Assembly: GCA_000223315.2 (NCBI GenBank)
Contig: AFUS01000003.1
Location: 1 to 64,000, forward strand
Direction: 5' to 3'
Length of the DNA stretch: 64,000 nt
Source of the DNA: Parvimonas sp. oral taxon 393 str. F0440
GTDB lineage: Bacteria > Bacillota > Clostridia > Tissierellales > Peptoniphilaceae
How positions within the stretch are numbered: position 1 is the stretch's first letter; each line of letters begins with the position of its first letter. The notes below the pieces were generated by a model. It saw only the letters and a program-made list of their open reading frames with translations, made no database searches and was not told the DNA's origin. The position numbers were made by a program, and so were the translations under genes. Below, in pieces: positions 400-60,456 of this stretch.

Positions 400-3300
400 T
401 TAATCTTCCCAAGCCTTTGTTACTTGTACTGATGTCTTTCCAGGTGTGTATGAATTCTTAACATTATGTCCTGTTACTTCTGTTGTGTAACCTTCTACTT
501 GTTCTTCTGTAATTGTGTAGTTGATTACTTCTCCCTTTTCATACTTGTCAAGATCTTCAAATTTCCATTTCCATCCATCTTTTTCTGTTACTGTCTTTGT
601 TTCTAATACTTTACCATTCTTTAACAGATTAATCTTAATTTCTTTCGGTCTCTTTCCGTCTTGGTCATTTTTATCATCCCAAGTCTTAGATCCTTCTACT
701 TCTGTCTTTTCAGGTTCTCTTTTGTTAACTACATTGAATTCAGTTTCTGAAGTTTGTGTGATAAAACCTGCATATCCGTTTCCAATATCTTCTTCTTCAA
801 TTGAATAATCAATCTTTTTACCGTCTTTGTATTCATCAAGATTGTCAAAACTTCCCTTCCAACCATTTTCTTTTGTTAAAGTAATAGTTTTATTAGTTGG
901 TTGTCCGTTTGCAAATAACTTAATTGTTACACTTGTAGGTCTCTTTCCATCTTGGTTATCCTTATCTTCCCAAGCCTTTGTTACTTTTACTGATGTCTTT
1001 CCGGGTGTGTATTTGTTCTTTAGGTTATAGCCTGTTATTTCTTTTTCATAACCTTCTACTTTTTCTTCATCTATAGAGTAAGTGATTTCTTTACCATTTT
1101 CGTATTTTGGTAATCCTTTGAATTCATACTTCCACTTATCATCTGCACCTTTTGTAACTTCTTTTGTTTCTACAACTTCAGGATCTTTATCTCCAACTTT
1201 TTTAATTAATTTAACTTTAATTGATGTTGGTCTCTTTCCGTCTTGGTTATTTGCATCGTCCCAAGTCTTTTCTCCTGAGATATCTACTGTTTCCGGTGTA
1301 TGTGTATTAGTAAGATTATAACCTGATAATGCTCCTACATAACCCGCTACAGCTTCTTCTTCTATAGAATAAGTTATTTCTGTACCTTTTTCATATCTTG
1401 GTAAACCTTTGAATTCATATGTCCACTTCTTATCAGCACCTTCTCTGACTTCTTTTGTTTCTACAACTTCAGGTGCTTTATCTCCAACCTTTTTAATTAA
1501 CTTAACAGTTATTTTTTCAGGTCTCTTTCCGTCTTGGTTGTTGTTATCATTCCAAGTCTTTTCCCCTTTTACATCTACTGTCTCCGGTGTATGTTTATTT
1601 GTTAAATTGTAGTCTGGACCATTTGTTGTTCTTGATTTAACTTTATCATAACCATCTACTTTAACTTCATCTATACTATATTCAATTGGTTTTCCACCTT
1701 CATATAACGGTAAGTCTGCAAACTCATATTTCCATTTGCCATCAGTATCCGGTGTAACATCTTTTCGTGTTACTTCACTTGTTTTTCCATCTACCGTTTT
1801 CTTCAAGATTACAGTTATTTTTTCAGGTCTCTTTCCATCTTGGTTATCATTGTCATCCCAAGTCTTTTCTCCTGATACTTTTGTTTTTCCAGGTGTATAT
1901 GAATTCTTAATATTATTTCCATCTATAGTTTTTGTATATCCAGGTACTTCTTCTTCATCTATAGAATAAGTTATTAATTTACCATCTTCATATTTTGGTA
2001 AATCATTGAATTCATATTTCCACTTCTTATCAGTTCCTTCTTTAACTTCTTTTGTTTCTACAACTTCAGGTGCTTTATCTCCAACTTTCTTAATCAATTG
2101 AACTTTTATTGTTGTTGGACGTTTTCCGTCTTGGTTATTCGCATCGTCCCAAGTCTTTTCTCCTGAAATATTTACTTTTCCAGGTGTATATGAATTCTTG
2201 ATGTTAGTTCCATCTATAGTTTTTGTATAGCCTGTTACTTCTTCTTCATCTATAGTGTATTTGATTTCCTTACCATTTTCATATTTTGGTAAATTCTTGA
2301 ATTCATATGTCCACTTCTTATCAGTACCTTCTTTAACTTCTTTTCTTTGTACCTCTACAGGCTGTCCGTTTTCAACTTGTTTGATTAATTTAACTGTAAT
2401 TGATTTTGGACGCTTTCCATCTTGGTTGTTTGCATCATCCCAAGTCTTTTCACCTTTTACATCTACTGTCTCCGGTGTATGTGAATTCTTAATGTTGTTT
2501 CCTGTTATAGCTTTGTCATAACCCGGTACATCTTCTTCATCTATAGTGTAAGTGATTTCTTTACCATTTTCATATTTCGGTAAATTTTTAAATTCATATG
2601 TCCACTTCTTATCAGGACCTTCTTTAACTTCTACTGTTTTTTCAACTACAGGATTTGCATCTCCAACTTTTTTCATTAACTTAACTTTTATTGTTGTTGG
2701 ACGCTTTCCATCTTGGTTATCTTTATCATCCCAAGTCTTTTCTCCTGAGATATCTACAGTCTCCGGTTTATGTGTATTCTTAATGTTATTTCCTGTTATA
2801 ACTTTATCATAACCTGCTACAGCTTCTTCATCTATAGAGTATGTGATTTCTTTACCATTTTCATATTTTGGTAAATCCTTAAATTCATATTTCCATTTAT
2901 CATCTGCACCTTTTGTGACTTCTTGTCTTTGTGCTTCTACAGGTTGTCCGTTTCCAACTTTTTTCATTAACTTAACAGTTATTTTTGTTGGTCTCTTTCC
3001 GTCTTGGTCATTGTTATCTTCCCAAGTCTTTTCCCCTGAAATATTTACTTTTTCAGGTTCTCTCGTATTTGTTACTTTGAACCCGTTTTCAGCTGAACCT
3101 GAAATAACACTAGTATAACCTTCTCCAACTGAAAGTTCCTTTATTGTATATTTTATTTTCTTTCCATCTTTATATTCATCAAGATTGTCAAAGCTACCCT
3201 TCCAGCCTTCTGATGCTTTTAAAGTAAGTTGTTTATCTGTTTCTACATCATCTGCAAGTAACTTAACTGTTATTTCTTTTGGTCTTTTACCATCTTGGTC

Positions 3301-4671
3301 ATTTGCATCTTGCCAAGCTTTCTCAACATTAATTTTTACTTTTGATCTTTTATTCTTAACTGTATAGAATATAGCTTCTCCTCCAACTATAGTTAAGTCA
3401 TACTCTTTTCCGTCAGGAATATAACCTGTAGGAGCTCCTATTTCTTTAATCTTATACTTACCGGGATCAAGTTTTGGAGAAACAGCTTCACCGTTAGCAT
3501 CTGTAGTCAAATCAAAAGTTGTACCATCAGCAACTTTTGTAATTCTAAATTTCGCATTAGCTAATTTTTTTGTGTTATCTTCTTCATCAATTTTAATAAT
3601 TTTGATTTTTTGATTTAAGTCACCTTGACCGCCACCACCGGCTTGTGCACTTAAAAAGTAACTACTAGATGAACCATTCTCTTCTGTACTTGTAAAACTA
3701 CCTTTATTTTTCAATTTAAGCTGAGGAATATAAGTAGAATTATAAGTCATAGAAAATTGTCTTCCTGAAGTGTTTCCAAGAAGACCACTAATATTAAACT
3801 CAAATTTAGTATCATTATCTAAGAATTTTATATAATTTTTTAGTTGCTCATAATTATAAGTTTTTATAAACTTCTTAATAGCACCATATTCATCAAACTC
3901 TACTTCATTTAAAACAAATGTCTCTTTCAAATAATGAATTCCCGGAGGAAGATTTCCGGAATCGACAAAGAGCTCATCTTTTATTAACACATTTGAGAAA
4001 TGTCCTTTTTTGTGATTTATACGAAGAGTCCATTTTGCTTTGTTTACATCTCCGGGTACTTTTTCACCCCATTTAACAAATAATTCATTATTAAGTCCCG
4101 GTTTTGGCGCTATTGGAACTGTTATAGTAAAAGGAACCCCACCAATCGATACAGTAATTTGATTGTTCTGTCCTGCATTTATATGATGATGTGCAAATGT
4201 GGCTTCTAAAAATATATTGCCTTTTATATTTTCTCTATTTTCTACATATTTTGTAAAAGTTACCTTTACAGTGCCACCACCTGCTTCGCCTTTTGAATCA
4301 ACATGTGCATTAGCAATTACAGTATGACCATCCGGTGCATAAAGTGGGAAATCAACTACTGATGCAGGTTCTGTAGGAAATTTAAACTGTTTAGGAAGTT
4401 GAATAGTAAAGTAATCCCCTTCTTTTAACGTCTTCCCATAAACACTTGCATCCCAATCCATTTCCAAACGAAACTTGCTCCAATATCCAAGCGGTGTTCC
4501 TGAAGGTATAGTATTACCATCTTTATCCTTAATTTCAAATCTTGTAATTTTTGTTTGTACACGGTCAACCCCTTCCGCAAACAAATTTCCACTACTAAAT
4601 ATTGTTCCAAAAAATATTACACAGGCTAAAAATAAGGATAAAGCTCTGTGAATAATTTCTTTTTTTCTCAT
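400..4671 (-). CDS. Large CnaB-repeat surface adhesin (frameshifted at 3' end)
   Basis: This is a secreted surface protein of 1423 residues up to the frameshift. Residues 1-32 are a signal peptide (basic MRKK, then a hydrophobic core ending near LFAEG). Residues about 40-340 resemble the two-domain collagen/fibrinogen-binding type adhesion module. Residues about 355-440 form a SpaA-like prealbumin domain (KIIKIDEEDNTKKLANAKF). From about 445 there are ten CnaB domains of about 85 residues, each opening with KTWxDxxxQDGKRP and each having the Lys and Glu expected for an isopeptide bond. Such stalks lift an adhesive tip away from the cell wall. The start has a good AGGAGG site. No LPXTG is seen because the frame breaks first; the continuation is at 1-399. 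Confidence 0.88.
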   Translation of the reverse strand: MRKKEIIHRALSLFLACVIFFGTIFSSGNLFAEGVDRVQTKITRFEIKDKDGNTIPSGTPLGYWSKFRLEMDWDASVYGKTLKEGDYFTIQLPKQFKFPTEPASVVDFPLYAPDGHTVIANAHVDSKGEAGGGTVKVTFTKYVENRENIKGNIFLEATFAHHHINAGQNNQITVSIGGVPFTITVPIAPKPGLNNELFVKWGEKVPGDVNKAKWTLRINHKKGHFSNVLIKDELFVDSGNLPPGIHYLKETFVLNEVEFDEYGAIKKFIKTYNYEQLKNYIKFLDNDTKFEFNISGLLGNTSGRQFSMTYNSTYIPQLKLKNKGSFTSTEENGSSSSYFLSAQAGGGGQGDLNQKIKIIKIDEEDNTKKLANAKFRITKVADGTTFDLTTDANGEAVSPKLDPGKYKIKEIGAPTGYIPDGKEYDLTIVGGEAIFYTVKNKRSKVKINVEKAWQDANDQDGKRPKEITVKLLADDVETDKQLTLKASEGWKGSFDNLDEYKDGKKIKYTIKELSVGEGYTSVISGSAENGFKVTNTREPEKVNISGEKTWEDNNDQDGKRPTKITVKLMKKVGNGQPVEAQRQEVTKGADDKWKYEFKDLPKYENGKEITYSIDEEAVAGYDKVITGNNIKNTHKPETVDISGEKTWDDKDNQDGKRPTTIKVKLMKKVGDANPVVEKTVEVKEGPDKKWTYEFKNLPKYENGKEITYTIDEEDVPGYDKAITGNNIKNSHTPETVDVKGEKTWDDANNQDGKRPKSITVKLIKQVENGQPVEVQRKEVKEGTDKKWTYEFKNLPKYENGKEIKYTIDEEEVTGYTKTIDGTNIKNSYTPGKVNISGEKTWDDANNQDGKRPTTIKVQLIKKVGDKAPEVVETKEVKEGTDKKWKYEFNDLPKYEDGKLITYSIDEEEVPGYTKTIDGNNIKNSYTPGKTKVSGEKTWDDNDNQDGKRPEKITVILKKTVDGKTSEVTRKDVTPDTDGKWKYEFADLPLYEGGKPIEYSIDEVKVDGYDKVKSRTTNGPDYNLTNKHTPETVDVKGEKTWNDNNNQDGKRPEKITVKLIKKVGDKAPEVVETKEVREGADKKWTYEFKGLPRYEKGTEITYSIEEEAVAGYVGALSGYNLTNTHTPETVDISGEKTWDDANNQDGKRPTSIKVKLIKKVGDKDPEVVETKEVTKGADDKWKYEFKGLPKYENGKEITYSIDEEKVEGYEKEITGYNLKNKYTPGKTSVKVTKAWEDKDNQDGKRPTSVTIKLFANGQPTNKTITLTKENGWKGSFDNLDEYKDGKKIDYSIEEEDIGNGYAGFITQTSETEFNVVNKREPEKTEVEGSKTWDDKNDQDGKRPKEIKINLLKNGKVLETKTVTEKDGWKWKFEDLDKYEKGEVINYTITEEQVEGYTTEVTGHNVKNSYTPGKTSVQVTKAWED

Positions 4672-9334: not shown

Positions 9335-10655
9335 ATGTTAGTATTAAATAACGGCATACTTTATATGCAAATATATGAATATTTCAAAAACGAAATAATA
9401 AATGGTACTTACAAGGCAAATACAAAACTTCCGAGCAAAAGAAATTTGGCAAAGGAATATAAAATTTCCTTAAATACTGTTGACAATGCCTATTCAAAAC
9501 TTTTGGAAGAAGGCTTTATTTATTCAAAAGAAAGACAGGGCTTTTTCGTTTCAGACGTTGGAGAGCTTTATGTTCTAAATAACAAACCAATCCACATAAC
9601 AAAGGAAGAAGAAAATATTGAATACGACTTTTCATACAGCGGTGTAAGTGATGAATTTCCCTATAAGGTATTTAAAAAAATTTCTTCCAATATTTTTGAT
9701 AATAAAGATATTTTAGAGAAAGTTGATTATCAGGGATATCTTCCACTTCGAACACAGATATCGGAATATCTAAATAAGTCAAGAGGTTTTAAGGCAGAAC
9801 CTTCACAAATTGTCATTTCAAGCGGATCCGAATATCTTTTTCAAATTATTTTTAAATTAATTTCAGGAAAATTCGGAATCGAAGACCCGGGATACAGTAT
9901 GCTTTCCAATATAATGGATACAAATGATATAAAATACGAATTTATTTCAGTTGACGAAAATGGAATGGATTTAAAAAATTAAAAAAGTCAAAATCGGATT
10001 TTTGTGTTATAACTCCTGCACATCAATTTCCAACCGGAGTTATAATGAATATGCAAAGGCGTGTTGAGCTTTTGAATATGAAAAAGATAAAATATGTAAT
10101 TGAGGACGACTACGACAGCGAATTCAAATACTCAAAAAGACCTGTTCCCGCATTAAAATCAATCGATGTAAATGATAAGGTAATTTATATCGGCTCTTTT
10201 TCAAAGTCAATCTCTCCTAGTTTTAGAGTGAGCTTTATGGTTCTCCCTTTTAACTTGGTTGAAAAATACAATAAAATTTTTAAATTCTTTATCTGTCCTG
10301 TTTCAATTATGGTTCAAAAAATGCTTACCGTTTTTATAGAGACTGGAGAATTTGAAAAACATTTAAACAGAATGAGAAAAATTTATTCTAAAAAAAGACA
10401 ATTATTAATTGATATGTTAAGTGAAAGAAAAGATATCACAATAAGAGGGGCGGATGCCGGACTTCATATAGTTTTAGAATATCCTAAAAATTACTCGGAA
10501 GAATATATTGTAAAAAAAGCGAAAGAAAAAAGATAAAAGTCTATGGATTTGGCTCTTATGGAACAAAAAGAGAAATTCCTTCTATTTTATTAGGTTTTGC
10601 AACACTTAGTGAAGAAAAACTGAAAGAAGGAGTAAAATTATTTTTAGAGATTTAG
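9335..10655 (+). pseudogene. MocR/PdxR-type regulator (GntR wHTH + aminotransferase fold), two frameshifts
   Basis: The N-terminus has a GntR winged helix (PSKRNLAKEYKISLNTVDNAY, residues about 30-55), followed by a fold-type I aminotransferase domain that senses PLP. The PLP lysine is in YIGSFSKSISPSFR. The frame breaks near 9975 and near 10530. One extra A at each A run restores it, and the true C-terminus (VYGFGSYGTKREIPS) ends at 10655. It is divergent from the B6 transporter/kinase pair with a shared palindrome, so it most likely activates or represses them in response to PLP. There is little ribosome-site sequence at the first ATG, and residue 11 is an alternative start. Confidence 0.78.
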
Positions 10656-13403: not shown

Positions 13404-14615
13404 TTAAAATTTAACTGTAAAAATAATTCTTTCTCCGTCAAAACTGTCTGCAGAAATTTTTCCCTTATGTTTTAAAACTATTGATTGGGCTATGGAAAGA
13501 CCTATTCCATATCCACCGGTTTTACTATTTCTTGAACTATCTGCTCTGTAAAATCTTTCGAATAATACATTATAATTCTTGACTTCTAAATTATCCGCTT
13601 CATTTTCAACTGTAAATACAATTCTTTTGTTTTGTTTTATAAGTTTTACATTTATATCACTTTTTTCTCTTGCATATTTTATAGCGTTGTCGAGTAAAAT
13701 TCCTATAACCTGTCTAATTAACTTTTCATTTCCCTTAAACGAAATTCCTGATTCAATATCTGTAATAATATCTTTATCCATACTTAAAGCATAGTCTTTA
13801 ACATCCGTAACACAATCGGTTAATACATCTGAAAAGGAAAATCCATCTTTTCAAGATTATCGGACTCTTCAAGTTTTGTAAGAGAGATTAAATTTCCAAT
13901 AAGACCATTTAATCTATTTACCTGCTTGTGAATATTACCCGTCCATTTACTTTCTCCACTTTCCATTTCAAGTACATCGGCACTTGTCTTTATTATGGCT
14001 AGTGGAGTTTTTAACTCATGACTTGCATCGGTGATAAAAGCATTTTGCTTTTCATAAGCCTGAACCATCGGTGCGACCGCCTTTTTAGATAGAACAAATG
14101 AAAAAAGAGCAACAAATCCTAAAACGAAAACACTGATTACAACACTGTTTCCAAGATTTGAATAAAAGACGTCATAATCCTTTACAACATCTACAAAGGC
14201 AATTAATTTTCCCTTGTCCGTATTTTCAACCATATATTTAAAGCCCTTATAATATCCACTTGTTTTCCCTTTGCCAAGACAGTTTTGGCATATTCAACCG
14301 CTTCAGATGCACTTGTAAAAAAACATCATCAGTATTAACTGTTACTACATTTTTCTTATTGTCAGTCTTAACAGTAAAAAATCTGTTAGAAAAGTTTTTA
14401 AGATAGAGTGTCTTTTTTTCATCCGAATTTTCATTAATTACTGCAAAACTTGGCATAACTCCATTGTTTTCTACCAATGTCTTAAGCAATTCGTCAGAGC
14501 TGTGATTAATATTATAAAAGTTTGCAATATTGACAAAAGCCATTATTGACAAAACTACAATCGATATAATTCCAACTGAAAAATAGATAAACTTTTTTCT
14601 AAGTTTAATTTCCAT
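13404..14615 (-). pseudogene. Sensor histidine kinase, three frameshifts
   Basis: In three open segments the minus strand encodes a complete membrane kinase of about 400 residues. There is an N-terminal membrane helix, an extracellular domain of about 130 residues, a second membrane helix, an H-box ASHELKTPLAIIKTS, an N-box with LLDNAIKYA and a G-box GGYGIGLSIAQ. The frame breaks near 14328, 14270 and 13850 at T or A runs, and one added base restores each join. It overlaps the response regulator gene by 11 bases. The stimulus is unknown. Confidence 0.82.
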
Positions 14616-43377: not shown

Positions 43378-45756
43378 TTATTTTTCTACAGAAGGTGGAT
43401 AACCGAAACCAACAGGATGATGTTGACAATATGTTGAAATCCAATTGTCCAAAGTGATAACCCTCTTGTATCCAACACTTTCCATTACTTTTCCGTCTCC
43501 GATATAAATTCCGACATGTCCATAGATACGTCCCATTCTACTTCCACTACTACTGCTTTCAACAGCTACAATCATTCCTATTTTTAATTTACCAATATCT
43601 GAAGTAAAAGTATAGTTTCTATACATATCATTGGCATTCCCACCTAAATATCCTAGTCCGGCATTTTGATAAACTCTTGAAACCCATTTTGCACATAAAT
43701 TTCGGCCTGGAGAACTTGTATTATATGCCGCATTTAAAATTCTCATTTGAACTTCTTCAGAAGCCATATAATATTTTCTATTATTTTTGTATTTCCCGTT
43801 TACAAAATCCATTTCGCCGTTTCCATCAACGGCTTTTCCGGTATATTTTTTACCATTTCTAAAGAAAAACCAGTCATATCCATCATCATACCAACCATTT
43901 GCGGGAAGTTTATTTTCATTATAATAAATTCCGTTTATATAAGTCTTTCCGTTGGACTCTAATCCTTCTTTATATAATTTTTCTTCATATATTCCATTGG
44001 CGTATTTTCCTTCTACAAAATATCTTTTTCCATTGCCGTCAATTCCGTGTCCTGTAAATTTTTTTCCATCTTTAAAGAAATACCAAGCACTTCCGTCGTC
44101 GCACCACCAATTAGCAATTTTTCCTTCTCTGTAAAATATTTCATCTATATAACAATTTGCGTATTTTCCATTTGCAAATTGCATTTCTCCATTACCATCA
44201 ACAGCTTTTCCGGTAAGTTTTTTACCATCTCTAAAGAAATACCAAGTACTTCCGTCATCATACCAACCATTTGCAGGAAGTTTATTTTCATCATAATAAA
44301 TTCCTTTTATATAAGTTTGTCCTTTTGACTTTAAACCTTCCTTATATAGTATTCCTTCATATTCTCCGTTAGCATATTTTCCGTCTACAAAATATTTTTT
44401 CCCACTAAGATCAATTCCATATCCGGTATATTTTTTCCCATTTTGGAAAAAATACCAAGCACTTCCGTCATCGCACCACCAATTGGCTATTTTCCCTTCT
44501 CTGTAAAATATTTCATCTATATAAGTATTTGCGTATTTACCATTTACAAATTGCATTTCTCCGTTGTCGTCAACAGCTTTTCCGGTAAATTTTTTACCAT
44601 CTCTAAAGAAATACCAAGCACTTCCGTCATCGTACCAACCATTTGCAGGAAGCTTATTCTCATCATAATAAATTTCATTAATATAAGTTTGTCCTTCTGA
44701 CTTTAAACCTTCCTTATAAAGTATTCCTTCATATTCTCCGTTAGCATATTTTCCGTCTACAAAATATTTTTTCCCACTAAGATCAATTCCATATCCGGTA
44801 TATTTTTTCCCATTTTGGAAAAATACCAAGCACTTCCGTCATCGCACCACCAATTAGCTATTTTCCCTTCTCTGTAAAATATTTCATCTATATAAGTATT
44901 TGCATATTTCCCATTTACAAATTGCATTTCGCCATTGCCATCTACTGCTTTTCCGTTATGTTTTTTACCTTCTTTAAAAAAATACCATGCAGTTCCGTCA
45001 TCATACCACCAATTTGCAAGTTTTCCATTTTCATAAAAAAGTTTATTTACATAACCATTTACATACTTTCCATTTACAAAATACCTTTTCCCATTGCCAT
45101 CTACTCCATAGCCATTATGTTTTTTACCGTTTTGGAAAAAATACCAAGAAGTTCCGTCGTCATACCACCAGTTTGCAGGCTTTAAATCTTCTCCATAGAA
45201 AATTCCATCTACATAGACTCTTCCTTCTGACTTTAGTCCATTTTTATATAGCATGTCTTCGTAAATGCCACTTCCATATTTCCCATTTAAAAATATCTTT
45301 TTCCATTGCCATCTACTCCAAGACCGGTATATTTTTTACCGTTTTGGAAAAATACCATGCTGTTCCATCATTGTACCACCAGTTTGCAGGTTTTGCATCA
45401 TCGCCATAGAAAATTTCATCCACATAGACTCTTCCCTTTGATTTTGCTCCATTTTCATAAAGGACATCTTTGTAAATTCCGCTACCATACTTGCCATTTA
45501 AAAAGTATTTAGATCCCCCTTTATCAATTGCAAGTCCTGTAAATTTCTTTCCGCTTTGGAAATAGTATAAATCATCTCCGTCATTATACCAACCATTTGC
45601 AAGTTTTCCGTTTTCATCATAAAAAATATTTTCTACATAAACTAATTTTTTCTCATTTTCATTTATATTTTCAGCAAAAAGTTTATTACTAAATCCCAAA
45701 TTAAAAATTAATAATAAAGAAAAAATCATTAAAGATATTTTTTTAAATGCTTTCAT
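43378..45756 (-). pseudogene. Secreted NlpC/P60 peptidoglycan hydrolase with ten cell-wall-binding repeats, frameshifts
   Basis: The start MKAFKKISLMIFSLLLIF is a signal peptide. Ten modules follow, each of about 62-65 residues built on WWYDDGTAWYFFKEGKK and an FVNGKY half, related to choline/cell-wall-binding repeats. The C-terminal domain has NLCAKWVSRVYQNAG (catalytic Cys) and GRIYGHVGIYIG (catalytic His), the NlpC/P60 pattern. The frame breaks near 45345, 45300 and 44822, each at an A/T run where sister repeats have one more base. Repeats at about 44440 and 44820 are nearly identical DNA. It probably cuts the cell wall. Confidence 0.83.
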
Positions 45757-48740: not shown

Positions 48741-48974
48741 TAATATGTTTACCACAAGGCATAAACATATTATGATTATATCATAACTCCTTTTTGATTA
48801 TTTTTTTAGGTAGTTATGATGAAATAGTAATAGGTTTATCATAAGGCATAAACCTATTACTATTATATCAAAACTTCATTTTGATTATTGTTATATTGTT
48901 GTTTTGATGAAATAGTAATAGCTTTATCATAGGGCATAAACCTATTACTATTATATATCAATATTACAATATTG
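48741..48974. repeat. Array of covarying hairpins with a conserved 10-base loop
   Basis: Three units spaced 87-88 bases. Stems are 48741-48751/48762-48772 (11 bp), 48823-48838/48849-48864 (16 bp) and 48911-48926/48937-48952 (16 bp, one C-C mismatch). The loops are ccacaaggca, tcataaggca and tcatagggca, so NCANARGGCA is shared while the stems differ but keep pairing. Between units lie further stems: 48780-48788/48812-48820, 48867-48874/48901-48908 and 48959-48965/48968-48974. The array lies between the divergent selenium operon and DUF969 operon, and could belong to either 5' leader. Confidence 0.7.
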
Positions 48975-55041: not shown

Positions 55042-55054
55042 CTTTAGTTGTTAA

Positions 55055-55085
55055 AACAAAAAATCATCCATTCATTGGGATGATT
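55055..55085 (-). terminator. rrn operon terminator (distal)
   Basis: The 8-bp stem AATCATCC/GGATGATT with a T tail on the minus strand follows the last 5S-like unit. Confidence 0.75.
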
Positions 55086-55092
55086 TTTTTGT

Positions 55093-55291
55093 TTGGCTGT
55101 TTTCTATTCTCCCAGTACGAGATGTACTAGTACCTTCGACGTTTAAGAGCTTTCGCTGTCGAAACTTGCCATTTGTTTCACAAATGGAGTTTCTTAGCAT
55201 CTGACCTACGACGCAATCATAGATTGCTGTTAGGTCATGAACTTCTATATTCGAGATAGAACAGGTGTTCCTTTTAAGCCTCACAGCCATA
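55093..55291 (-). rRNA. rrf: 5S rRNA-like unit A with an 87-base structured insert
   Basis: Both halves of a 5S rRNA are present (helix I GGCTGT/ACAGCC closes), but an 87-base insert (55153-55239) lies between GAAGTT and AAGCTC. The insert folds into two long hairpins (GACCTA...TAGGTC and GAAACT...AGTTTC). The 5' half also differs from unit B in the loop C region. It lies beyond a terminator, so transcription is doubtful. It may be a pseudo-5S. Confidence 0.6.
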
Positions 55292-55294
55292 CTT

Positions 55295-55330
55295 GTTTGT
55301 TTGCTGTTAAGCTATGAGCTTTCACTATAT
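55295..55330 (-). repeat. Stray tail segment of a unit C-like 5S
   Basis: This stretch matches the 3' tail of unit C (GTGAAAGCTC..AGCTTAAC), but no 5' half precedes it. It is a leftover of recombination between 5S-like units. Confidence 0.5.
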
Positions 55331-55340
55331 TCTTATTAAA

Positions 55341-55366
55341 ACAAAAAATCACTCTTTCGAGTGATT
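55341..55366 (-). terminator. rrn operon terminator after 5S unit B
   Basis: The 8-bp stem AATCACTC/GAGTGATT with a T run on the minus strand sits directly after the normal 5S gene and is probably the main end of the rrn operon. Confidence 0.75.
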
Positions 55367-55376
55367 TATGCTTTGT

Positions 55377-55490
55377 TTGGCTGTTTTCTATTCTCCCAAT
55401 ACGAGATGTACTAGTACCTTCGACGTTTAAGAGCTTAACTTCTGTGTTCGAGATGGGAACAGGTGTATCCTCCTAGCCATCACAGCCATA
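55377..55490 (-). rRNA. rrf: 5S ribosomal RNA (unit B, canonical)
   Basis: About 114 bases with the usual features: helix I GGCTGT/ACAGCC, the CCCATCTCGAACACAGAAG region and GGTACTAGTACATCTCG. It has no insert and is followed by a terminator. This is the copy most likely to be functional. Confidence 0.92.
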
Positions 55491-55510
55491 CTTATTTATT
55501 TACTTTTCTT

Positions 55511-55670
55511 TGCCGTTAAGCTCTGAGCTTTCACTGTCGAAACTTGCCATTTGTTTCACAAATGGAGTTTCTTAGCATCTGACCTACGACGCAATCATAG
55601 ATTGCTGTTAGGTCATGAACTTCTGTGTTCGAGATGGGAACAGAGTAGCCTCTTAAGCCTTACAGCCATA
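55511..55670 (-). rRNA. 5S rRNA-like unit C: 5' half plus insert, altered 3' end
   Basis: The 5' half (through GAAGTT) is close to unit B, then comes the same 87-base insert as in unit A (55531-55617, one base different), then AAGCTCAGAGCTTAACGGC instead of the normal 3' half. The 3' tail can pair with the 5' end (about 10 of 11 positions). It is transcribed directly after 23S. It may be a truncated 5S or a 5S-derived RNA. Confidence 0.55.
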
Positions 55671-55739
55671 CTTGTTTACTTTTCTTTTTCAATATATTTC
55701 TGTTTAATACCCTTCCAACTAAAGAGTATATATTTCTGG

Positions 55740-58637
<2,898 letters not shown>

Positions 58638-58667: not shown

Positions 58668-58743
58668 TGGTGGAGATGAGGAGATTCGAACTCCTGACCC
58701 CCTGCTTGCAAGGCAGGTGCTCTCCCAACTGAGCTACACCCCC
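58668..58743 (-). tRNA. tRNA-Ala (anticodon UGC)
   Basis: A 76-base tRNA in the 16S-23S spacer. It has GGGGGTGTAGCTCAG at the 5' end, anticodon loop CTTGCAA, T-loop GTTCGAAT and an encoded CCA. Only this tRNA is in the spacer. Confidence 0.96.

Positions 58744-58923: not shown

Positions 58924-60456
<1,533 letters not shown>

Follow-up and report, generated by a model that had tools for sequence, protein, structure and literature searches.

Two of the three 5S rRNA-like units in an rRNA operon of Parvimonas sp. oral taxon 393 str. F0440 carry an insert that appears to belong to a family of two-hairpin elements, dispersed among Parvimonas relatives and conserved in structure (hereafter, X). 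On the basis of sequence comparisons, we consider it probable that this dispersed element entered 5S rRNA genes and that the resulting chimeras are pseudogene-like by-products; the most fitting description is that of insert-bearing 5S pseudogenes, which would be either co-transcribed with the operon or reached by read-through.

Three 5S-like units in one rRNA operon

The window (that is, the whole stretch of 64,000 nucleotides that was analysed) contains an rRNA operon with the order 16S, tRNA-Ala, 23S, unit C, unit B and unit A on the minus strand (Table 1). The initial annotation had described unit B as normal, which its Rfam match bears out, and had assigned to units A and C a shared 87-base insert differing in one base; coordinates and sequences agree with this, the single difference being AGTGA in unit C and AGCGA in unit A. 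In both units, the insert lies exactly between GAAGTT and AAGCTC, a junction that is continuous in unit B and that we take to be 56/57–58 in E. coli numbering, near the helix II/III junction (counted by hand against the E. coli sequence). Loop C of unit A reads CTAT where normal 5S rRNA has CCCAT. The two hairpins that had been proposed for the insert are recovered in predicted folds and in the covariation described below, and the insert of unit A is internally base-paired. Sequence and minimum-energy fold likewise support the earlier claim that unit C lacks a 3′ half and has a tail (GAGCUUAACGGC) that pairs with its own 5′ end. Both units fold far better than shuffled sequences (z = −4.98 for unit C and −5.29 for unit A, with 0 of 200 shuffles as good in each case). 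As unit A lies beyond a terminator-like hairpin, a transcript of unit A would need read-through or an unseen promoter.

Table 1. Features of the rRNA operon and its 5S-like units, in operon order
Feature	Position	Strand	Basis or remark
16S rRNA gene	58930..60455	-	Rfam SSU_rRNA_bacteria, 1573.6 bits
tRNA-Ala (TGC), 16S-23S spacer	58668..58743	-	ARAGORN and Rfam tRNA
23S rRNA gene	55736..58634	-	Rfam LSU_rRNA_bacteria, 2793.8 bits
Unit C, whole	55512-55670	-	Next after 23S in operon order
Unit C, 5S 5′ half	55618..55670	-	Helix II altered relative to normal 5S; sequence comparison
Unit C, 87-nt insert	55531..55617	-	Base C plus two-hairpin element X (86 nt); sequence and fold
Hairpin 1 of unit C insert	~55580-55615	-	Fold
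Hairpin 2 of unit C insert	~55533-55576	-	Fold
Unit C, tail AAGCTCAGAGCTTAACGGC	55512..55530	-	Replaces 5S 3′ half, pairs with own 5′ end; sequence and fold
Unit B, intact 5S rRNA gene	55375..55490	-	Rfam 5S_rRNA, 75.2 bits, model 1-120
Terminator-like hairpin and T-run, 3′ of unit B	55346..55367	-	Between units B and A
Tail-like leader GTGAAAGCTCATAGCTTAACAGC ahead of unit A	55303..55325	-	Resembles C-type tail; sequence; repeat family D4
Unit A, whole	55091-55291	-	Last of the three units
Unit A, 5S 5′ half	55240..55291	-	Loop C and helix III altered (CTGTTCTATCTCGAATATAG); sequence comparison
Unit A, 87-nt insert	55153..55239	-	One base off unit C insert; sequence and fold
Unit A, 5S 3′ half	55091..55152	-	In 65-nt repeat (family D3), 98% identical to unit B stretch
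Hairpin AAATCATCCcaatgaatGGATGATTT and T's, 3′ of unit A	55052..55088	-	Terminator by eye; sequence; not among computed terminator-like hairpins

Elsewhere in the window, Rfam finds the dfrA-dnaX RNA motif twice in tandem at 48775-48937 on the minus strand (90.0 and 81.8 bits). The list of open reading frames contains apparently split genes at 9335-10536, 13404-14615 and 43378-45756, named by eye as a GntR/MocR-like regulator, a sensor histidine kinase and a long cell-wall-binding-repeat protein, together with a 1423-aa frame (400-4671, minus strand) with many Cna-B-like repeats (EKTWDD..NQDGKRP), by eye a likely surface protein.

Insert-bearing 5S units across Parvimonas

Comparison of rrn operons in this and related genomes, as had been proposed initially, revealed the 5S insert in five of six Parvimonas genomes (own included). 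Together these hold 14 X-bearing units in 10 loci: three are A-type, which keep the 5S 3′ half, and the other 11 are C-type, with a tail in its place that appears to be a short complement of the 5′ end (the X-less relic described below is counted apart). At least one normal 5S gene is present in each of the 10 loci, and 17 such genes are uncut, not counting those cut by contig ends in L068 and L073. An intact 5S gene directly follows 10 of the 11 C-type units; the exception, G004_a2, is followed by another C-type unit and has lost part of its 5S half and the closing stem formed by 5′ end and tail. Only two of the 14 units (unit A of the window and G001_C6) have both 5S halves around the insert, given that the third A-type unit, G002_c, retains the 3′ half with the 5′ half gone and all C-type units, unit C included, are devoid of a 3′ half. 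A missing terminal part next to a normal 5S gene, as in insert-bearing 5S pseudogenes, is therefore found in the 11 C-type units and G002_c; unit A misses no part.

The own genome has three rrn loci with 5S, which contain four intact 5S genes, three X-bearing units and one relic. In locus C1, the order is 23S, normal 5S, hairpin and T-run, tail-like leader, C-type unit, normal 5S and tRNAs. At locus C2, the relic (a decayed 5S 5′ half without X, TATGGATTTTTATGATTGAG...GAAGTTCATTAAATAG) is followed by a normal 5S gene and tRNAs. Units in Parvimonas micra SYY, which was reached through one exact match of 25 bases in a set of species-level genomes, read as in G005. No X was seen in G003, the sixth Parvimonas genome, although this absence is weak as G003 is a draft with its single 5S match at a contig end. 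As a separate observation, a short leader (AAGCTC..AGCTTAACRGC; in the window, the leader listed in Table 1, with like places in L066 and L070) precedes later 5S copies, even those without a preceding X; pairing between this leader and the start of the 5S behind it would be possible.

We give practically no credence to assembly error or contamination as the origin of these units. The own assembly (1,483,165 bases) does consist of five contigs at 89.68% completeness, but this genome has a third copy in a different rrn locus, and like units are present in four further genomes, two of which are single-contig (G002 and G004), and in P. micra SYY. The possibility raised initially, that the units could be exposed as an assembly chimera, falls with these copies.

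Structure and conservation of X

The part shared by copies of X is hairpin 1, ATGACCTAACAG[AC]AATCTNTGATT[GT]CGTNGTAGGTCAG. Hairpin 2 varies in sequence and recurs in shape, with closing stems such as GCCGC/GCGGC, GCAAC/GTTGC and ATCGCATT/AATGCGAT among the 27 folds obtained from 28 loci (all except L030); the predicted fold departs from the usual hairpin-2 shape in L019, L021, L027, L075, L076, L133 and L138. In the Parvimonas alignment (13 of the 14 copies, 12 distinct; G004_b, which equals G004_a1 over X, was left out), 99.2% of cells are paired and two-sided change is seen at four pairs, each of them in hairpin 2, a result matched by 0 of 500 shuffles; one closing pair of hairpin 2 is GC in five copies, GU in four and AU in three. 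Hairpin 1 is near-invariant in Parvimonas, with no two-sided change, and is of little informative value there. Across the family, however, 70 distinct rows from many genera have 97.8% of hairpin-1 cells paired and two-sided change at nine of 13 pairs (44 cells as opposed to 6.2 in shuffles, with 0 of 500 shuffles as good), in an alignment that was fitted to the model and is hence biased towards it. Kinship among rows can inflate such covariation tests; nonetheless, slid controls fall far below. Compensatory changes thus support hairpin 2 in Parvimonas and hairpin 1 in the family.

No Rfam family scored above its gathering threshold on X in the window, in ten further loci or in part of L109. 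The left edge of X, beside T-rich bases, is identical in 5S, tRNA and terminator contexts; the T at this edge is found in 78 of 81 contexts, a frequency that partly reflects selection because this T is a position of model R1.

The two components of the chimeras differ in divergence. The mean pairwise difference of the 5S 5′ half is 0.229 among 13 of the 14 chimeras (G002_c having no 5′ half) versus 0.057 among the 17 normal genes, that is, the half is about four times more variable in the chimeras. For X the value is 0.064 over 14 copies, raised by one copy that is 12 bases longer in hairpin 2. These figures suggest that the 5S part is weakly constrained and that X is either strongly constrained or often homogenised.

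Dispersal of X beyond Parvimonas 5S genes

When insert and tail were searched against 149 relatives (own included), 20 of these had matches. A covariance model built on hairpin 1 matched 53 of 130 genomes of the family at E ≤ 0.001 (the own and other Parvimonas genomes included), although the weakest of these matches may be other hairpins. Both X copies of the window score 69.7 bits, copies from these loci having helped to build the model. Among 398 genomes across the phylum, the own genome was the only match, in a search that was less sensitive (16 candidates per genome, compared with 49 in the family search, and stricter filters); G036, for example, matched weakly in the family search (8.6e-4) and not in that of the phylum. 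A phylum-wide spread of X was therefore unseen at this lower sensitivity.

In total, 98 X matches were recorded over the 71 sources searched, and 93 entered the count of contexts after leaving out L148 and L028 (repeats of listed places) and the weak L125:1264, L029:1485 and L126:400. Setting aside eight Parvimonas rows left 81 distinct non-Parvimonas contexts. Most X copies outside Parvimonas lie away from RNA genes. Outside 5S, X is found downstream of terminators, between tRNAs, within prophages and 23S-5S spacers, next to truncated 5′ ends of tRNAs and, in reversed orientation, within 23S insertions. A tRNA, 5S or 23S gene is present within 400 bases in 18 of the 81 contexts, on the same strand in 16; the two opposite-strand contexts are inside 23S genes. 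X starts directly after at least five T in 13 of the 81 contexts, most of them preceded by a terminator-like hairpin as judged by eye. In L030, a 16-tRNA stretch from a genome belonging to the same taxonomic order, three different X copies with varied hairpin-1 inner stems lie between tRNA genes at 426, 772 and 1066. In G007 (L109-L117), X lies within a longer GC-rich dispersed repeat that is tandem in places (period of about 300 bases) and has REP-like CCGACTCCGCT stretches.

Plasmid and phage collections contain X in five Streptococcus prophage records and one Peptoclostridium replicon. The element lies just ahead of the large terminase gene in two annotated Streptococcus prophages and, by eye, likewise in a phage-like region of G001 for which no plasmid match was found; in five further loci, it follows a stop codon between apparent phage genes (by eye). 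We also observed that X before the terminase follows a terminator-like T-run each time (L074, L075 and L064), with a terminator in L075 unlike those in L074 and L064. No clean empty X site was found in phages, and outside rRNA genes no close strains were found that differ cleanly in an empty versus a filled site.

REP/BIME elements are mosaic palindromic repeats, short intergenic hairpin modules that often lie after genes. X resembles these in being short, repeated, mosaic, hairpin-based and often located after genes, but differs in having no link to a Y1/RAYT transposase; to our knowledge, a location inside stable RNA genes, which X takes up, is unusual for REP/BIME. A Y1 transposase is not supported as the mover of X given that its presence does not track copy number: PF01797 is above cut-off in five of 15 genomes and in none of G013, G023, G053 and G072, which have 17, 9, 11 and 16 matches to model R1, respectively. 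We found no enzyme that moves X.

Parallel cases at tRNA and 23S rRNA genes

Chimeras of X also occur at tRNA genes, namely tRNA-Ala (L016), tRNA-Val (L022 and L106, in two genomes of one genus with two tandem units in each) and tRNA-Gly (L020). Their order is the upstream region, the first 10-12 tRNA bases, X, the upstream region again and an intact tRNA, with direct repeats of 193 nt at 98% (L016), 152 nt at 94% (L022) and 88 nt at 94% (L020). G047 shows an alternation of X with repeats (180 nt at 99%) that consist of the 5S 3′ end plus terminator. The Parvimonas 5S chimeras are arranged in like order, that is, 5S 5′ half, X, tail and leader, and intact 5S. The duplication at chimeras could be explained either by unequal crossing-over that followed a first insertion or by template switching in which X served as filler. 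As a side observation made by eye, the tRNA-Val chimeras keep, on the 3′ side, a stretch complementary to the tRNA 5′ end (in L022, CGUCU opposite GGACG) that echoes the 5S tail.

In the 23S genes of three relatives, an insertion of about 312-343 bases holds a reversed X (one copy seen in G159, four in G162 and two in G158), so that the RNA strand there is the complement of X. Relative to the 23S gene in the window, which is itself without it, the insertion falls between the equivalents of positions 1163 and 1177-1180; we take this position to be helix 45.

Taken further, X could be a mobile element of Gram-positive anaerobes, acting at the RNA level or guided by RNA structure, that aims at stable RNA genes (5S, tRNA and 23S), a reading that we hold to be quite unlikely. 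It seems similarly improbable to us that the chimeras are what such targeting leaves behind, that is, the 5′ end of a host RNA gene fused to X with an intact gene copy next to it. On that reading, X chimeras would formally resemble those eukaryotic SINEs that have a 5S or tRNA head.

Relation to known rRNA inserts

The kind of gene described here is already known from expanded 5S genes and 5S pseudogenes: the text of Stepanov and Fox (2021; PMC7812874), in the portions considered here, describes 89 expanded 5S rRNAs of 15 structural types, truncated insert-bearing pseudogenes, and motifs like the thermoanaerobacterial insert between genes of other genomes (including rRNA leaders and spacers). 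As in its clostridial and Pseudoalteromonas cases, the Parvimonas insert is structured and coexists with normal 5S, truncated insert-bearing copies lie at rrn operons, and 57-58 is one of the sites listed there. The truncated copies in Parvimonas, however, lie directly before an intact 5S gene in 10 of 11 cases, whereas those in that source are usually downstream of normal 5S, and the Parvimonas insert family stands apart in that it could be followed to dispersed copies, whose covariation was tested, as well as to loci of tRNA and 23S. Parvimonas, Peptoniphil- and Tissierell- are absent from the main text of that source, Table 1 rows and supplement aside, and it was the only directly relevant literature found on an X repeat or Parvimonas 5S inserts (in coverage mostly outside subscription papers). 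As far as our searches go, what is new is that such units occur in Parvimonas, the insert family with its covariation, the finding of this insert family at 5S, 23S and tRNA loci within a single bacterial family, and the source of the 5S insert.

The initial annotation had called 5S inserts very rare, with a large one known in Halococcus morrhuae. Rarity stands, but such inserts are not confined to Halococcus, and the likeness holds only as an analogy between large structured 5S inserts: in the same source, the archaeal insert is at site 104.1-105, belongs to the cell's only 5S type and is seen in the ribosome, whereas that of Parvimonas is bacterial, at 56/57-58 and beside intact 5S. The 23S intervening sequences (IVSs), common in helices 9, 25 and 45 (PMC4990558), are similarly hairpin-rich, patchy inserts in an rRNA gene, although X is only part of the 23S insertions found here and is reversed. 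An insertion in the mature rRNA coding region, as in IVSs, is seen for X in 5S and in the 23S genes of G158, G159 and G162; the hosts of IVSs listed in the portions of PMC4990558 considered here do not include 5S.

Competing explanations and proposed origin

The initial annotation had offered an inserted 5S rRNA, an RNA derived from 5S, or pseudogenes, of which our comparisons favour the last and make the first unlikely. A ribosomal role for unit A or C is unlikely given the normal 5S gene in each of the 10 loci, the variability of the 5S half and the site itself, as 57-58 is reported to be blocked by uL5 (PMC7812874, in its portions considered here); the intact genes beside the split ones likewise suggest that split copies are probably not used in ribosomes. 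In particular, we regard it as very unlikely that unit A is a working expanded 5S rRNA that enters ribosomes with its insert and creates two kinds of ribosome (compare H. morrhuae and Thermoanaerobacterium). Although unit A has both 5S halves, a 3′ half nearly equal to the normal gene and an internally paired insert, and although expanded and normal 5S coexist in other genomes of the same source, a terminator-like hairpin precedes the unit, its loop C is altered, and a 3′ half is kept by only three of the 14 X-bearing units, G002_c among them having no 5′ half.

Given that C-type units lie inside the rrn transcript and fold stably, a functional 5S-derived RNA is possible. Specifically, the C-type chimera (5S 5′ half, X and tail) could be a new small RNA, freed from the rrn transcript by 5S-type processing at the closing stem, with RNA-binding proteins or the maturation of 5S as its target; we judge this quite unlikely. 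The 11 units in five genomes, the hairpin-2 covariation of X and the stable fold of unit C speak for it, as does the closing stem: the 5′ end pairs with the tail in folds of 10 of the 11 units, the stem is paired in 90% of cells versus at most 64% when slid, and changes that lengthen it (such as AAGGCUU) are present in five of the six copies adjoining 23S. Yet covariation in this stem is no better than in shuffles (0.169 versus 0.164, with 399 of 500 shuffles at least equal) and no two-sided change is seen, so that the stem is not supported as a covarying, and hence selected, helix; moreover, the 5S half varies, in G004_a2 part of that half is gone together with the stem, and the tail is also found upstream of 5S genes with no X ahead of it. 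That the chimeras are neutral debris only (that is, a chance insertion spread by gene conversion, with hairpins kept merely by homogenisation) is unlikely, too. The variable 5S half and the X-less relic at locus C2 would fit, but the two-sided compensatory changes in hairpin 2 (Parvimonas) and hairpin 1 (family) would not be expected from homogenisation alone and count against such a history.

We favour entry of X into 5S genes, and the following steps can be envisioned. In an ancestor of the X-bearing Parvimonas, X may have inserted into a 5S gene at 56/57-58, between GAAGTT and AAGCTC; the site is evident from comparison with intact 5S copies, and the direction (element into 5S) is suggested by the many places of X outside 5S. 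The interrupted gene may then have multiplied within and between rrn operons through recombination of tandem 5S copies, with some copies having the 5S 3′ half and most having the tail instead. Ribosomal 5S rRNA would be supplied by the intact genes, and the C-type units, as part of the rrn transcript, would probably be trimmed off with the spacer, like 23S IVSs. The 5S part is decaying, and X is the part that stays conserved, through selection on its fold, homogenisation between copies, or both. Counting against this reading, the conserved fold of X in the chimeras, along with the frequent pairing of 5′ end and tail, could reflect a use of the chimera RNA itself; so do the lack of a matching mover enzyme and of clean empty and filled site pairs in our searches, and the reversed orientation of X in the 23S insertion.

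Implications

These findings bear on the origin of rRNA expansion segments and intervening sequences. As one small structured element is found free in genomes and in 5S, 23S and tRNA loci, the path from a dispersed repeat to an rRNA insert can be followed and tested in this family, for which a family-level RNA or DNA structure is supplied with no Rfam match over threshold found. For 5S annotation, the chimeras call for caution, as such units can be missed or misread. The dispersal of X suggests a source from which such rare rRNA inserts can come and, if the targeting of stable RNA genes considered above were true, rRNA expansion segments and 23S IVSs would share one mobile source.
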